Below, in pieces: positions 4,618 to 64,000 of a stretch of DNA of 64,000 bases. Position numbers and translations under genes: made by a program. Location: NCBI RefSeq assembly GCF_005877055.1, contig NZ_CP039424.1, positions 1,116,001 to 1,180,000 on the forward strand, read 5' to 3'. Each line of letters begins with the position of its first letter. The first letter of the stretch is position 1. Source of the stretch: Citricoccus sp. SGAir0253 (lineage in GTDB: Bacteria > Actinomycetota > Actinomycetes > Actinomycetales > Micrococcaceae). The notes below the pieces were generated by a model. That model ran no database searches and had not been told where the DNA came from. It saw only the letters and a program-made list of their open reading frames with translations.

Positions 4618-6021
4618 GTGACCGAGCAGCACGGCGCGGAGGACCCCCGGCGCCGGATCCCGCGCACCGACGCGCTCCTGGCCCTGCCGGAGGTCCGCTC
4701 CGCGCGGGCCCGGCTCAGCGACGCCGTGCTCGCGGACCTCGCCCGCCGCGCCCAGGACCGCGCCCGGTCCGGGCGGATCGCCCCCGAGGACGTCGCGGCC
4801 GCGCTGGTGGCCGACGTCGCCGGTCGCGCGGCCACCAGCCTCCGCCCCGTGCTCAACGCCACGGGGGTCGTGGTGCACACCAACCTGGGCCGCGCCCCGC
4901 TCTCGCCGGCCGCCGTGGACGCTCTCGTGCGGGCGAGCGGCTACGTGGACGTGGAGATGGACCTGGACTTCGGGGTGCGCTCGCGCCGCGGGGCCGGGAC
5001 GGTCGCGGCCCTGCTGGCCGCGGTGCCCGAGGCCGAGGACGCCCTCGTGGTCAACAACGGCGCCGCCGCCCTCGTGCTCGCCACCACGGCCCTCGCCGCG
5101 GGGCGGGAGGTCGTCGTCAGCCGCGGGGAGTTCGTGGAGATCGGGGCCGGCTTCCGCCTGCCGGACCTCATCGCCTCCACGGGCGCCCGGCTGCGCGAGG
5201 TGGGCACCACGAACCGCACGCACCGCGCCGACTACGCCGACGCGATCGGCGCGGACACCGGCTGCCTGCTCAAGGTCCACCCCTCCAACTTCCGGGTGGA
5301 CGGCTTCACCGCCGCGGTGCCGGTCGCCGAACTGCACGCCCTGGCCACCGAGCGCGGGGTGCCCCTCGTGGTGGACGTCGGCTCCGGGCTGGCCCGCCAC
5401 GACCCGTCCCTGCCCACCGAGCCGGACCTGGCCGCCGCGCTCGCGGACGGGGCCGACGTCGTGATCGCCAGCGGGGACAAGCTCCTCGGCGGCCCGCAGG
5501 CGGGGCTGCTGCTGGGCCGCGCCGCGACGATCCGCGCCCTCGCGCGGCACCCGCTGGCCCGCGCCGTGCGCGCGGACAAGCTCACCCTCGCCGCCCTCGA
5601 GGCGACCCTGGCCGGCGGGCCCACCCCGGTCGAGCGCTCCCTGCACGCCGACCCGCGGCGGTTGCGGGAGCGGGCCGAGCGGCTGGCCGCCGCGGTGCGC
5701 GCCGCCGTCGCGGACGCCGGGGACGAACCCATGGGGAACGGGCCGGCCGGGGGCGTGTCCGTCGTGGCGCACGACGGCCGGGTCGGCGGCGGGGGCGCCC
5801 CCGGGGTGCCGCTGCCGGGCTGGGCCGTGCGCCTGCCCGCCGGCCTCGCCCCGCTGCTGCGGGCCGGGGACCCCGCGGTCGTGCCGCGCGTGCACGAGGG
5901 CGCGTGCCTCGTGGATCCGCGCTGCGTCCCCGAGGACGACGACGACCGGCTGGCCGCCGCGGTCGGCGCGGCCCTGCGGGCGCTGGCCGGCGGGACGCCG
6001 GGCGGCGGGGCGGGGGCCTGA
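4618..6021 (+). CDS. selA: L-seryl-tRNA(Sec) selenium transferase
   Basis: SelA is a PLP enzyme that converts Ser-tRNA(Sec) to Sec-tRNA(Sec) using selenophosphate. The GTG start follows GAGGAGGA. The 467-residue protein is of normal length. It shows 'NATGVVVHTNLGRAPLS' near residue 80, 'EFVEIGAGFRLPDL', and the PLP-lysine motif 'SGDKLLGGPQAG' with Lys288 (E. coli Lys295). Only 51 bp separates it from tRNA-Sec, so both are likely on one transcript. The selB start lies 1 nt after its stop codon. Confidence 0.96.
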   Translation: MTEQHGAEDPRRRIPRTDALLALPEVRSARARLSDAVLADLARRAQDRARSGRIAPEDVAAALVADVAGRAATSLRPVLNATGVVVHTNLGRAPLSPAAVDALVRASGYVDVEMDLDFGVRSRRGAGTVAALLAAVPEAEDALVVNNGAAALVLATTALAAGREVVVSRGEFVEIGAGFRLPDLIASTGARLREVGTTNRTHRADYADAIGADTGCLLKVHPSNFRVDGFTAAVPVAELHALATERGVPLVVDVGSGLARHDPSLPTEPDLAAALADGADVVIASGDKLLGGPQAGLLLGRAATIRALARHPLARAVRADKLTLAALEATLAGGPTPVERSLHADPRRLRERAERLAAAVRAAVADAGDEPMGNGPAGGVSVVAHDGRVGGGGAPGVPLPGWAVRLPAGLAPLLRAGDPAVVPRVHEGACLVDPRCVPEDDDDRLAAAVGAALRALAGGTPGGGAGA

Positions 6022-6022
6022 G

Positions 6023-7813
6023 GTGCACGTCGTCGCCACCGCCGGGCACGTGGACCACGGCAAGTCCACCCTCGTCCGCGCGCTGACCGGGATGGAGCCG
6101 GACCGCTGGGCGGAGGAGCGCCGCCGCGGCCTGACGATCGACCTCGGCTTCGCGTGGACGGCCCTGGACTCCGGGCGCGAGGTCGCCTTCGTGGACGTCC
6201 CCGGCCACGAGCGGTTCCTGTCCAACATGCTCGCCGGGCTCGGACCCGCCCCCGTGGTGTGCTTCGTGGTCGCCGCGGACGAGGGCTGGAAGCCGCAGTC
6301 CTCCGACCACCGGGACGCGGTGGCGGCCCTCGGCATCGAGCACGGCCTGGTGGTCCTCACGCGGGCCGACCTCGTGGAGGACCCGGACCGGATCGCCGCC
6401 GTGCTGGAGCGGACGCGGGCCGAGATCGCCGGCACGGGGCTGGCGGGCGCCCCGGCCGTCGTCGTGTCCGCGGCCACGGGCGCGGGGCTGGACGGGCTCC
6501 GGACCGCGCTGGACGGCGTGCTCGCCGCGGCGCCCGCGCCGCCGGCCGGCGGGCGGGTGCGGCTGTGGGTGGACCGGTCCTTCACCGTCCGGGGCGCCGG
6601 CGCGGTGGCCACCGGGACCCTCGCGGCGGGGACCCTCGCCGCGGGCGACCGGCTCGAGCTGCTCGGGGTTGCGGGCGCCGTGCCCGTGACCGTGCGCGCC
6701 CTGCACAGCCGCAACGCCCCGCACGAGGCCCTCGGGCCCGTCAACCGCGTGGCGGTCAACCTGCGCGGGGCGGACGCCGAGGCGGTGCACCGGGGCGACG
6801 CGCTGGTGACGCCGGGCGCATGGCCGCTGGCCGACGTCGTGGACGTGCGGCGCACGACCGGCACGGACCTCACCGAGGCGCCCGCGGGCCTGCTGCTGCA
6901 CGTGGGCACCGCGACCGTGCCGGTGCGCGTGCGGCCCTTCGACGCCGGCCACGCCCGGCTCACGCTGGACCGCCGGCTGCCGCTCGTGCCGGGGGACCGG
7001 CTCGTGCTGCGCGACCCCGGGGCGCGCACCGTGTTCGGCGGCGTCCGGGTGCTGGACGTGGACCCGCCCGCCCTGGTCCGGCGCGGGGACGGCACCCGCC
7101 GGGCCCGGTTGCTGGCGGGCATGCCCGACGGCGGCGACGCCCTCGGGGAGATCGCCCGCCGGGGCGCGGTGCGGGCAGCCGCCCTGGACCGGCTGGGGCT
7201 GACCGTGCCCGCGGGGGCCGTCGGCGTCCGCCGGCTGGGGGAGTGGTGGCTGCACGAGCCGGTCCTCGCCGGGTGGCGGGAGCGGCTGCGCACCGCCGTG
7301 GAGGACCTCGCGGCGCGCGACCCCCTGGCCGCCGGGCTCAGCCGGGGCGCCGCGCTGGACCTGCTCGCCGTCCCGGACCCGGCCCTGCTCGACGCCGTGG
7401 TCGCCGAGGCCGGCCTGGCCCAGGCGGCGGGCTTCGTCACGGTGCCGGGGCCGGCGCGGGGCCTGGGGCCGGCCGAGGCCGCGGTCGCCGCCCTGGAGCG
7501 GCGACTGGCGGCGGCGCCCTTCGCCGCGCCGGAGGGGGACGAGCTGGCGGCGCTGCGGCTCGGGTCCCGCGAGCTGGCGGCCGCCGAGCGGGTGGGGCGA
7601 CTGCTGCGCCTCGAGGGGTCGGTGGTGCTGCTGCCCACCGCCCCCGCGCTGGCCATGCGCGAGCTCGCCCGGCTGGCGCAGCCCTTCACCACGAGCCAGG
7701 CCCGGCAGGCGCTGGGCACCTCCCGCCGGGTGGCGATCCCCCTGCTGGAGCTGCTGGACGCCCGGGGGTGGACCCGGCGGATCGACGCCGGCCACCGCGA
7801 GGTGGTGCGCTGA
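6023..7813 (+). CDS. selB: Selenocysteine-specific translation elongation factor
   Basis: SelB is a GTPase that carries Sec-tRNA(Sec) to the ribosome at UGA codons marked by a SECIS hairpin. The GTG start is 1 nt after the selA stop. GTPase motifs are clear: G1 'GHVDHGKST', G2/G3 region 'RRRGLTIDLGFAW' and 'DVPGHERF', and a G4 variant 'LTRADL' (Thr-Arg in place of Asn-Lys, as is common in SelB). EF-Tu-like domains 2 and 3 follow, then winged-helix units that bind SECIS RNA. The C-terminus reads 'FTTSQARQALGTSRRVAIPLLELLDARGWTRRIDAGHREV', the last winged helix. At 596 residues it is near the family norm. Confidence 0.96.
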   Translation: MHVVATAGHVDHGKSTLVRALTGMEPDRWAEERRRGLTIDLGFAWTALDSGREVAFVDVPGHERFLSNMLAGLGPAPVVCFVVAADEGWKPQSSDHRDAVAALGIEHGLVVLTRADLVEDPDRIAAVLERTRAEIAGTGLAGAPAVVVSAATGAGLDGLRTALDGVLAAAPAPPAGGRVRLWVDRSFTVRGAGAVATGTLAAGTLAAGDRLELLGVAGAVPVTVRALHSRNAPHEALGPVNRVAVNLRGADAEAVHRGDALVTPGAWPLADVVDVRRTTGTDLTEAPAGLLLHVGTATVPVRVRPFDAGHARLTLDRRLPLVPGDRLVLRDPGARTVFGGVRVLDVDPPALVRRGDGTRRARLLAGMPDGGDALGEIARRGAVRAAALDRLGLTVPAGAVGVRRLGEWWLHEPVLAGWRERLRTAVEDLAARDPLAAGLSRGAALDLLAVPDPALLDAVVAEAGLAQAAGFVTVPGPARGLGPAEAAVAALERRLAAAPFAAPEGDELAALRLGSRELAAAERVGRLLRLEGSVVLLPTAPALAMRELARLAQPFTTSQARQALGTSRRVAIPLLELLDARGWTRRIDAGHREVVR

Positions 7814-61545: not shown

Positions 61546-62196
61546 TCAGCGGCGCACGGCGATGAGGACGCCGGTGCCGGTGGGCACGAGGGCGGAGAAC
61601 CACTCGTGCTCGTCCCGCAGCAGCTTCCCGGCCTCGCGGGCGGCGACGGTGGAGGCCTCGCGCACCGCCGGCCGGGGCACCCGGTCCTGGTCCAGGGCGT
61701 CGTTGACCACGAGCAGCCCGCCCGGCCGCAGCAGCCGCGCGGCCTGCTCCACGTGGAAGACGAGCGAGGCCTTGTCCGCGTCCAGGAACACGAGGTCGTA
61801 CGAGCGGCTGGTCAGCCGCGGCACCACCGTCCGGGCCCGGCCCGTGATCATCCGGGTGCGGTTGGCGGGGAAGCCGCCGTCGGCGAAGGCCTCGCGGGCC
61901 GCCCGCAGCGCCTCGGCGTCCGGGTCGATGGTGGTGAGCATGGCGGACCGGGACAGCCCGCGCATGAGGGCCAGCCCGGAGACGCCCGCGCCCGTGCCGA
62001 TCTCCACGAGCGTGGCGGGGGAGCGGGTCGCCGCCAGGACCGTCAGCAGGGCCGCGGTGCCCTCGCTCACGGGGGTGATGCCCAGGTCGGCGGAGCGCTC
62101 GCGGGCCCGCAGCATGACCTCGTCCTCGTCCGGACGCGACTCGGCGAATGCCCAGCTGGCATGCTTGTCGGTCTGGTGGGGGCTCAGGGCCTTCAT
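61546..62196 (-). CDS. O-methyltransferase (class I SAM-dependent, COMT-like)
   Basis: The 216-residue protein has 'ADLGITPVSEGTAALLTVLAATRSPATLVEIGTGAGVSGLALMRGL' (SAM motif I E-G-T-G-A-G), 'MLTTIDPDAEALRAAREAFADGGF', 'YDLVFLDADKASLVFHVEQAARLLRPGGLLVVNDALDQDRV'. The metal-binding Asp/Asn are in the latter two. In other actinobacteria this gene commonly lies divergent from an ECF sigma E gene; here the sigma gene is absent and an anti-sigma-like gene comes next. Confidence 0.93.
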   Translation of the reverse strand: MKALSPHQTDKHASWAFAESRPDEDEVMLRARERSADLGITPVSEGTAALLTVLAATRSPATLVEIGTGAGVSGLALMRGLSRSAMLTTIDPDAEALRAAREAFADGGFPANRTRMITGRARTVVPRLTSRSYDLVFLDADKASLVFHVEQAARLLRPGGLLVVNDALDQDRVPRPAVREASTVAAREAGKLLRDEHEWFSALVPTGTGVLIAVRR

Positions 62197-62447
62197 GGTG
62201 CGGGCTCGATTCTCTCGGGACGGAGGCGGTCCGGGCCGGCGGGGACTCCGCGCGGGTGGCGAACCGGTGTCCCAGTCTACGGCGAGCCCGGTGGGTGTTC
62301 AGGCGCCTCCCAGAAAGGGCGGGCAGACTGGGCCGGTGACGGAAAGGAGTCGACGGCAGTGTGCCTGACCGACTGCACCACACCCCTCATGAAGCCCCCC
62401 TGCACCCCGGCCCCCGGAATCCCCGCCGGAGGGAAGGACACCGTCTG

Positions 62448-63722
62448 ATGGCGGTGTTCCATCCGCGCGCGCGTCTCGACTCCTATGTCGAGGGCGCCCT
62501 GGCCCCCGGCTCCCACCAGCGCGTGAGGGCGCACCTCGCCGACTGCGCGGACTGCCGCCGGGAGGTGGAGCAGCGTCGGCGCATCCTGCGGGCCGCCTCC
62601 TCCCTCGGGTCCACGGCGTGGGCGCGCTCCACCGCGGCCCGGCCGTCGGCGTACCCCGGCCGCCCGACGGGTCCCGCGGAACCGCCGCTGCTCGAGCGCC
62701 GGGAGGGGATCGCGGGCTGGAAGGTGGTCCTCGGGCTCGGCGCCGCGGGGCTCCTCGCCTCGGGTGCCCTGGCCGGAGCCTGGGTCGCCGGCGACCCGGA
62801 CGCCTCCCCGCCGGAACACCTCCTGCCCCTCGCCGGTGCCCCCGCCTCCGACGAGGGCGGGGACGCCCGCGTGTCGGCCCCCGGGTCCCCGAGGTCGACC
62901 GACGGCGCCGCCACCGACGGCGCCGCGACCGGCGGGCCGGCGGCCGGGACGGGCACCCCGGACGCGGCCGTGCTGGCGCCCGCCGGTGCCGGGCTCCCCG
63001 CCGTGGCCGCCCCGTCCCCGGCGACATCGACCGCGTCCCCGGACGCCGCGTCCGTCCCGGCGGTGCCCGGTGGCGAGGGCGGGTTCACCCGGGCCGGCGC
63101 CGTGGACCTGACGCCGGCCATGGTCACCGAACTGCGGCAGGCGGGGTGGAACGTGCCCACCCTCCACGGGCTCGGACTGCGGGGGGAGACCACCGGGTGG
63201 CAGCACGGGGAGGGTGCCGCCGAGGTGGTCATGACCCTGTCCGGGGACGCCCACTCCCTCGAGCTGCACGAGTGCCGCTCCCTGCGGGACGGGGCGGCGC
63301 CGCCGTCGTGCCCCGTGGACTGGACCGCGGCGCCCGCCGCGGGGGGCTCGTCCGGTGCCGCGGGCCCCGCGGCCGCCGCCCGGGAGGCCGGTGCCGCGGC
63401 CTCGGCGCTCGCGAGCGTGGTCGCGGAGCCCCTGGCCGACGTCGGCGGTCGGCCCGTGGAGCTGCCGGTGGGCGTGGAGATGACCGTCCGGGAACGGGCG
63501 GACGGCTCGTGGACGGCAGCCATGACGACGGACGAGGCGTCCTACGCGGTGGACTCGGACCTGCCCGTGGAGAGCGCGTCCCGCGTGATGTCCATGGTGG
63601 TCATCTCGGAGCGCTCCCGGGTGCTCGGGGGGACCGCCCCGGACTCGGCCGCCGAGCGGCTCGCCCGGGGGTTCGACCGGCTGTTGCCGTGGTCCGGGGT
63701 GACCCTGGTCGCACCGCGGTGA
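62448..63722 (+). CDS. zf-HC2 anti-sigma-factor-like membrane protein with large outer domain
   Basis: ATG 62448 follows GGAGGGAAGGA. The 424-residue protein begins 'MAVFHPRARLDSYVEGALAP', with the zinc-binding pattern His29-x3-Cys33-x2-Cys36 ('HLADCADC') of ZAS-type anti-sigma factors. One membrane helix lies at ~93-115. Then comes a ~100-residue Ala/Pro/Asp/Gly linker and a ~200-residue outer domain ('MVTELRQAGWNVPTLHGLGLRGETTGW', 'VVMTLSGDAHSLELHECRSL', 'MVVISERSRVLGG'). Typical RseA/CseE proteins are much shorter. No sigma factor gene is present beside it. tatB follows 55 bp downstream. Confidence 0.82.
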   Translation: MAVFHPRARLDSYVEGALAPGSHQRVRAHLADCADCRREVEQRRRILRAASSLGSTAWARSTAARPSAYPGRPTGPAEPPLLERREGIAGWKVVLGLGAAGLLASGALAGAWVAGDPDASPPEHLLPLAGAPASDEGGDARVSAPGSPRSTDGAATDGAATGGPAAGTGTPDAAVLAPAGAGLPAVAAPSPATSTASPDAASVPAVPGGEGGFTRAGAVDLTPAMVTELRQAGWNVPTLHGLGLRGETTGWQHGEGAAEVVMTLSGDAHSLELHECRSLRDGAAPPSCPVDWTAAPAAGGSSGAAGPAAAAREAGAAASALASVVAEPLADVGGRPVELPVGVEMTVRERADGSWTAAMTTDEASYAVDSDLPVESASRVMSMVVISERSRVLGGTAPDSAAERLARGFDRLLPWSGVTLVAPR

Positions 63723-63763
63723 CGGCCGCACGTCGTGCCCGCGGCGGGCACGGGGCGCTCCGG

Positions 63764-63769
63764 TAGGCT
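63764..63769 (+). promoter_or_regulatory. Leaderless -10 box of tatB
   Basis: TAGGCT, 8 nt before GTG 63778, so tatB has its own promoter in addition to any readthrough. Confidence 0.5.
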
Positions 63770-63777
63770 GGGGTCCC

Positions 63778-64000
63778 GTGACCTTCGGAATCAACGGTGC
63801 AGAGCTCATCATCCTGGTGGTGCTCGCCGTCCTGGTGCTCGGCCCCGAGAAGCTGCCGGAGTACACCCGCAAGCTCACCGAGTGGATCCGGAACCTGCGG
63901 GCCATGGCCGAGGGGGCCAAGTCCCAGTTCAAGGAGGAGACCGGGACCGACTTCGACGAGATCAACTGGCGGCGCTACGATCCCCGGCAGTACGACCCGC
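63778..64000 (+). CDS. tatB: Sec-independent (Tat) translocase subunit TatB (3' truncated by window)
   Basis: The first ~74 residues are visible: an N-terminal helix 'GINGAELIILVVLAVLVLGPEKLPEY' with the Gly-Pro hinge, then an amphipathic helix 'YTRKLTEWIRNLRAMAEGAKSQFKEETGTDFDEINWRRYDPRQY'. TatB helps dock twin-arginine substrates; this window contains at least one (the GH18-like protein). The D-F-x-x-I-N-W-R-x-Y-D-P segment is typical of actinobacterial TatB rather than TatA. Confidence 0.92.
   Translation, partial: MTFGINGAELIILVVLAVLVLGPEKLPEYTRKLTEWIRNLRAMAEGAKSQFKEETGTDFDEINWRRYDPRQYDP

Follow-up and report, generated by a model that had tools for sequence, protein, structure and literature searches.

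The window, a stretch of 64,000 nucleotides from the 3.56 Mb genome (3 contigs) of Citricoccus sp. SGAir0253, ends in a locus where an O-methyltransferase gene and tatB enclose the gene of an anti-sigma-like membrane protein (Table 1). In relatives, a sigE gene also lies in this interval, and the methyltransferase-tatB span is about 1.6-2.2 kb where both SigE and the anti-sigma are present; it is about 1.0-1.6 kb here and in the SigE-less relatives that keep the anti-sigma gene. The same arrangement recurs in all 7 genomes of the genus and in all 19 clade members that have the zinc domain, which rules out an assembly artefact. The full tatB open reading frame corresponds to positions 5778-6518 of locus L009. 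Upstream of the anti-sigma gene, a short frame preceded by a ribosome-binding-like stretch was seen by eye in 7 out of 7 genomes of the genus; its stop codon shares letters with the ATG start codon of that gene (TGATG), and translational coupling of the two is possible.

Table 1. Features of the SigE-less locus. Positions are those of the window, residues those of the 424-residue protein.
Feature	Position	Strand	Remarks
O-methyltransferase	61546-62196	-	Methyltransf_3, E 1.6e-16; divergent; forms the conserved left side of the SigE locus
Interval occupied by sigE in relatives	62197-62447		251 bp; no sigma gene or remnant
AAGGAG, ribosome-binding-like	62344-62349		by eye; ahead of the possible upstream ORF
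Possible upstream ORF (GTG...TGA)	62359-62448	+	29 codons; by eye, seven genomes of the genus aligned
Orphan anti-sigma-like membrane protein gene	62448-63722	+	424 aa; orthologs of relatives likewise between methyltransferase and tatB
H5	62460-62462	+	probable fourth zinc ligand
Zinc anti-sigma domain	62466-62633	+	helices 7-14, 20-32, 34-62
E15	62490-62492	+	in the zinc anti-sigma domain
H29	62532-62534	+	zinc motif residue
C33	62544-62546	+	zinc motif residue
C36	62553-62555	+	zinc motif residue
Transmembrane helix, residues 90-114	62715-62789	+	helix in the AlphaFold2 model; preceded by a conserved GIAGWK motif; hydropathy and motif also in relatives
Outer domain, residues about 213-417	63084-63698	+	predicted fold RseB/MucB C-terminal-domain-like
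tatB start, conserved right flank	63778-64000, continuing past window end	+	TatA_B_E, E 4.2e-6

A SigE profile, built from eight SigE proteins of relatives, was run against 120 genomes of the family (Micrococcaceae), whose genera are coded g1 (Citricoccus, the genus of the window) to g32. A match of at least 270 bits was obtained in 78 genomes, and it adjoins the methyltransferase gene in those of the 78 whose match was placed. In the other 42 genomes the best match reaches at most about 138 bits, so that the split is clean. Absence is all-or-none by genus, the 42 genomes being all the listed members of 10 of the 32 genera (g1, 7 genomes; g2, 1; g3, 6; g5, 5; g11, 4; g12, 5; g13, 3; g14, 5; g16, 1; g21, 5). 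In the genome of the window, the top match (129.7 bits) is the SigR gene, which is adjoined by an RsrA-like gene. Two other fates of sigE were ruled out. No SigE-level match, as expected of a relocated gene, was found elsewhere in this genome or in the other 41 SigE-less ones, and a decayed gene in the gap is excluded by the search of the profile against the six frames of 62097-62547, where the best score was 0.1 bits, on the wrong strand. SigE has been lost from the genome, not moved. The original prediction, made from the letters of the window, had placed the missing gene correctly between kept flanks, and its reference order with sigE agrees both with the 78 genomes and with the sigE-rseA-htrA-tatB order of M. 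tuberculosis (PMC10027907). Its claim of a missing sigma gene proved stronger than stated, since the absence is genome-wide, and the sigE of the same lineage elsewhere that would have spoken against it was not found in this genome.

The sole Pfam match of the protein is zf-HC2 (residues 7-37, E 5.5e-8), and the predicted zinc motif H29, C33, C36 is indeed present. The AlphaFold2 model has block pLDDT values of 94-96 across residues 11-50, the best Foldseek match of the zinc domain is RslA (3hug_F, prob 0.98), and profile matches in the PDB are RslA, RsiW and ChrR. The three-helix bundle with HxxxCxxC that marks class I (zinc) anti-sigma factors is therefore recovered by Pfam, by AF2 (helices 7-62) and by Foldseek. 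Among the 19 proteins that keep this domain without SigE, hereafter orphans, HxxxCxxC is invariant, and 18 have a histidine exactly 24 residues ahead of it, near the place of the fourth ligand in RslA, whose zinc ligands served for the comparison (PMC2877774). At position H-14, all 19 orphans have E, and the 43 SigE-partnered proteins have D (22), E (2) or other residues (19), the consensus of SigE-bearing genera having been made without g9. A second mark of the class is an acidic (or hydrophobic) helix-1 residue in contact with sigma4; the acidic residue is present in 19 out of 19 orphans, its equivalence to RseA D11 being judged by eye from the position of the motif.

There are signs in the sequences that the orphan gene is under purifying selection. 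dN/dS was estimated on 41 within-genus pairs over 56-codon regions, of which few are unsaturated, the more diverged pairs being near saturation. For the less saturated pairs among G102, G034 and G082, values for the anti-sigma domain were about 0.13, 0.16 and 0.25, and those for the outer domain about 0.17-0.22, with linkers mostly higher; two other pairs gave 0.13 (G119/G060) and 0.19 (G014/G090) for the anti-sigma domain. The closest pairs within g1 span about 0.13-0.25 for this domain. At equal methyltransferase divergence, mean similarity of the anti-sigma domain was higher in orphan than in SigE-partnered proteins (0.32/0.27, 0.40/0.28 and 0.41/0.32), from pairs that are not phylogenetically independent. 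The frame is open in 18 of the 19 orphans, and those of g14 are more diverged. In the remaining one (L065, genome G016) the outer domain runs on in another frame, by a frameshift or a draft error, and this locus was excluded from alignments A2 and A3.

Two linkers, at about residues 63-89 and 121-210, have block pLDDT values under 60, and it is mainly because of them that the window copy is long. The outer domain (block pLDDT about 87-97 over residues 221-290 and 331-390 in the AlphaFold model) is present at 84 of 116 loci of the family: the original prediction of an unusually large protein with a ~200-residue outer domain holds for the length of this copy, but the outer domain itself is normal for the family. 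In an alignment of 83 proteins, no Pfam family besides zf-HC2 matched more than 2 members. With the window model, RseB/MucB structures occupy the first five rows of a second-look alignment (Z 8.1-8.9 over 93-98 residues; for 2p4b 217-316, Z 8.9, rmsd 2.6, 97 aligned), and Foldseek ranks 4tmd first and RseB second. With a SigE-bearing homolog, RseB/MucB take the top six Foldseek rows (prob 0.97-1.00), and in the second alignment a Thermotoga protein stands slightly above them (8.7 v 8.3). As Z values of 8-9 are near the level that the tool calls common, and other folds come within about 1 Z for the window model, this resemblance is only a lead. The alignment covers about residues 217-316 of RseB, the C-terminal domain, through which RseB binds the anti-sigma factor outside the membrane (PMC7400510). 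The LolA-like, lipid-binding N-terminal domain of RseB/MucB was not found in the model, where a low-confidence linker precedes about residue 213. A candidate description, resting on predicted folds, would be an RseA-like protein with a fused RseB-C-like domain.

We then compared the loci of the 116 family genomes with a methyltransferase match (G002, G081, G101 and G118, all g3, have none), scoring each for sigE, zinc motif and outer domain; L079, L085 and L091, derived from places away from the methyltransferase locus, were excluded beforehand. With SigE present, 43 loci have zinc motif, transmembrane helix and outer domain, 8 have transmembrane helix and outer domain without the zinc motif, 6 have a shorter ORF without outer domain (4 in g6, plus G078 and G026), and 19 have an empty interval. 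Without SigE, 19 are in the state of the window, with zinc motif, transmembrane helix and outer domain, 14 keep transmembrane helix and outer domain only (g5, g11, g12), and 5 have nothing left (g13, g3); 2 loci fall at a contig end. Leaving out these two, the outer domain is kept at 33 of 38 SigE-less and 51 of 76 SigE-bearing loci. A mirror image was observed in g19 (L150, L152, L157, L158), g23 (L111, L168-L171) and g24 (L116, L118, L125, L126, L141): SigE is kept by the methyltransferase, with no anti-sigma gene before tatB, in 14 out of 14 genomes. The methyltransferase match of G100:C8:237563-238201 contains one in-frame TGA.

The tree used RpoB and RpoC (2459 columns) from 37 ingroup genomes of all 32 genera and 3 outgroups. 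It groups g1, g2, g14, g16 and g21 (support 100), then adds g12 (support 100); the sister of this six-genus clade is g10 + g11 (support 94 for the joint clade). Elsewhere, g3 and g5 are grouped (100) next to g15 (95), and g13 goes with g8 (63). This implies about four losses of SigE, assuming no regain; one fewer would need a regain in g10. The zinc anti-sigma domain outlived SigE only in the clade of the window, where 19 out of 19 genomes of the five related genera g1, g2, g14, g16 and g21 have it, as the comparison of synteny across Micrococcaceae suggested along with the original prediction establishes. These data show that the common ancestor of the six-genus clade lost sigE by deletion, with no copy moved elsewhere, and that five genera kept the whole anti-sigma protein. 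The orphan observation is confirmed as real, genome-wide and clade-wide.

In zinc anti-sigma domains, helix 1 has been assigned to sigma4 and helix 4 to sigma2 by coevolution (PMC7406223). We found the helix-4 motif in 29 of the 43 SigE-partnered proteins with a zinc motif, against 2.1 expected from shuffling, and in none of the 19 orphans, against 0.2 expected. Likewise, AlphaFold predicts a separate helix at 59-73 in the SigE-bearing homolog of G053, and none in the window protein. That retention of helix 4 tracks the presence of SigE was ruled out as a strict rule by SigE-bearing genera poor in the motif, namely g10 (0/3), g17 (0/3), g20 (0/4) and most of g22 (1/5 with motif). Loss of the motif therefore predates the loss of SigE or is independent of it. 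Of the marks of class I, a separate sigma2-contacting helix 4 is missing from the orphan sequences and from the model, and so is a cognate ECF sigma factor, no SigE being in the genome. The protein is a descendant of the class I (zinc) anti-sigma family, and we do not file it as a functioning member.

Retention under selection after the deletion of SigE suggests that the protein found another job. As to possible partners, the 19 orphan genomes were scanned for sigma region 2 and zf-HC2. SigR has an adjacent zf-HC2 gene in 19 out of 19, and in G108 (99% complete) and G110 (100%) sigma region 2 occurs in two proteins only, the primary sigma and SigR, which is very few for genomes of 2.7-2.9 Mb. 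The reading that we tentatively place first, at somewhat less than an even chance, is that the window gene descends directly from the SigE anti-sigma gene of the methyltransferase-sigE-antisigma-tatB locus, and that its protein is alive and repurposed as a membrane-tethered, sigma4-docking protein. The cytoplasmic zinc domain would still dock through the acidic face of helix 1, which holds sigma region 4 in known anti-sigma factors, and the outer RseB-C-like domain would still read or cap something in the cell envelope. Since no helix 4 able to block sigma region 2 is recognisable, the full sigma-sequestering trap has probably been lost. We infer docking on sigma4 without blocking of sigma2, and with it the partner and mechanism that the protein would have acquired after SigE. 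The likeliest targets would be SigR or the primary sigma, the two sigma factors common to all 19 genomes; with SigR, the protein might act as a second, membrane-linked controller beside RsrA. Counted against this reading are the loss of the zinc motif in g12 (5/5), inside the clade, as expected if it is dispensable, the helix-4 loss that is not specific to SigE loss, and the outer-domain frameshift of G016.

An unlikely but serious alternative is that the link to sigma is dead: the outer domain would have an envelope job of its own, such as the binding of peptides or lipids or assistance to the adjacent Tat system, with the zinc domain kept only as a structural or docking module unrelated to sigma. 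This fits the survival of transmembrane helix and outer domain in all 14 genomes of g5 (5/5), g11 (4/4) and g12, where both SigE and the zinc motif are gone, the retention of the outer domain at most SigE-less loci, and its predicted RseB-C-like fold; but it leaves unexplained the invariant helix-1 glutamate and zinc motif in five genera, even though the case of g12 marks the domain as one that a lineage can give up. We find it rather improbable that the orphan, once SigE was gone, became a membrane-bound controller acting on the primary sigma or on RNA polymerase, which would dock on sigma4 without a sigma2-blocking helix and be coupled to the envelope through the RseB-like domain.

The original prediction offered either control of a sigma factor encoded elsewhere or a new role. 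Control of an orphan ECF sigma factor in each genome is now unlikely as a general answer, SigR having its zf-HC2 neighbour throughout and no sigma of the SigE lineage being present in the rest of the genome. As G108 and G110 are limited to the primary sigma and a zf-HC2-paired SigR, an unpaired ECF cannot be the general partner. The search for an orphan ECF did yield one candidate in the genome of the window: the ECFs L004 and L006 each lie beside an anti-sigma-like gene, but none was seen in the 1.2 kb read downstream of the ECF L005. With this half of the alternative weakened, the new role is the better supported one. At L008 (G000:C1:1237153-1240371), a weak match to sigma region 2 lies in a long open frame; a hydrophobic stretch and, by eye, an RskA-like-looking C-terminus come after it, so that the product is perhaps a fused sigma/anti-sigma.

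Direct action of the zinc domain on RNA polymerase would need no SigE. Such action has been reported in vitro for RseA/Rv1222 of M. tuberculosis, where the protein is described as binding RNAP and inhibiting transcription whatever the sigma (PMC6418294), but it is disputed in vivo. According to the same source, however, its in vivo effects pass only through SigE, and RNAP/DNA binding maps to its C-terminal region, a part with no evident counterpart in the window protein; we give this possibility little credence. Least probable of all is a relic in slow decay, with g12 as the end state, for the loss of the zinc motif in g5, g11 and g12, the frameshift of G016 and the divergence of g14 would fit it, but dN/dS is low, nearly all frames are open, and HxxxCxxC has stayed invariant after divergence into five genera.

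An anti-sigma factor is regarded as tied to its sigma. The present family offers a natural experiment, in which a sigma/anti-sigma pair was parted at least three or four times with different parts surviving, and which suggests an advantage in keeping the outer domain even when SigE is absent. What is new is that an anti-sigma domain has persisted under selection once its sigma was gone, while parts around it were lost as modules. The two-sigma genomes could make the target of the orphan domain findable by elimination. We found no earlier report of this orphan anti-sigma among the open-access listings examined, and the term "orphan anti-sigma" does not occur in the main text of PMC6180224.

Among known systems, RseA (Rv1222) of M. 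tuberculosis shares the locus order and the HxxxCxxC zinc anti-sigma domain, but the window locus has no SigE, no htrA in between and no helix-4 motif, and its protein has a membrane helix and a 200-residue outer domain. A divergent methyltransferase gene stands beside the M. tuberculosis sigE locus as well. RslA of M. tuberculosis (PDB 3HUG) is the best structural and sequence match, a likeness that concerns the zinc domain; unlike the window protein it has helix H4 and a cognate SigL, and it binds sigma4 more tightly than sigma2 (PMC2877774). RseB/MucB, of the envelope stress response in E. coli and Pseudomonas, have a C-terminal domain that the predicted outer-domain fold may resemble, whereas the outer domain of the window protein is fused to the anti-sigma in one chain, lacks the lipid-binding N-terminal domain and has 8-15% identity. 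The anti-sigma remnants of g5, g11 and g12 sit in the same methyltransferase-tatB place with transmembrane helix, outer domain and no SigE and, unlike the window protein, have lost the zinc motif.
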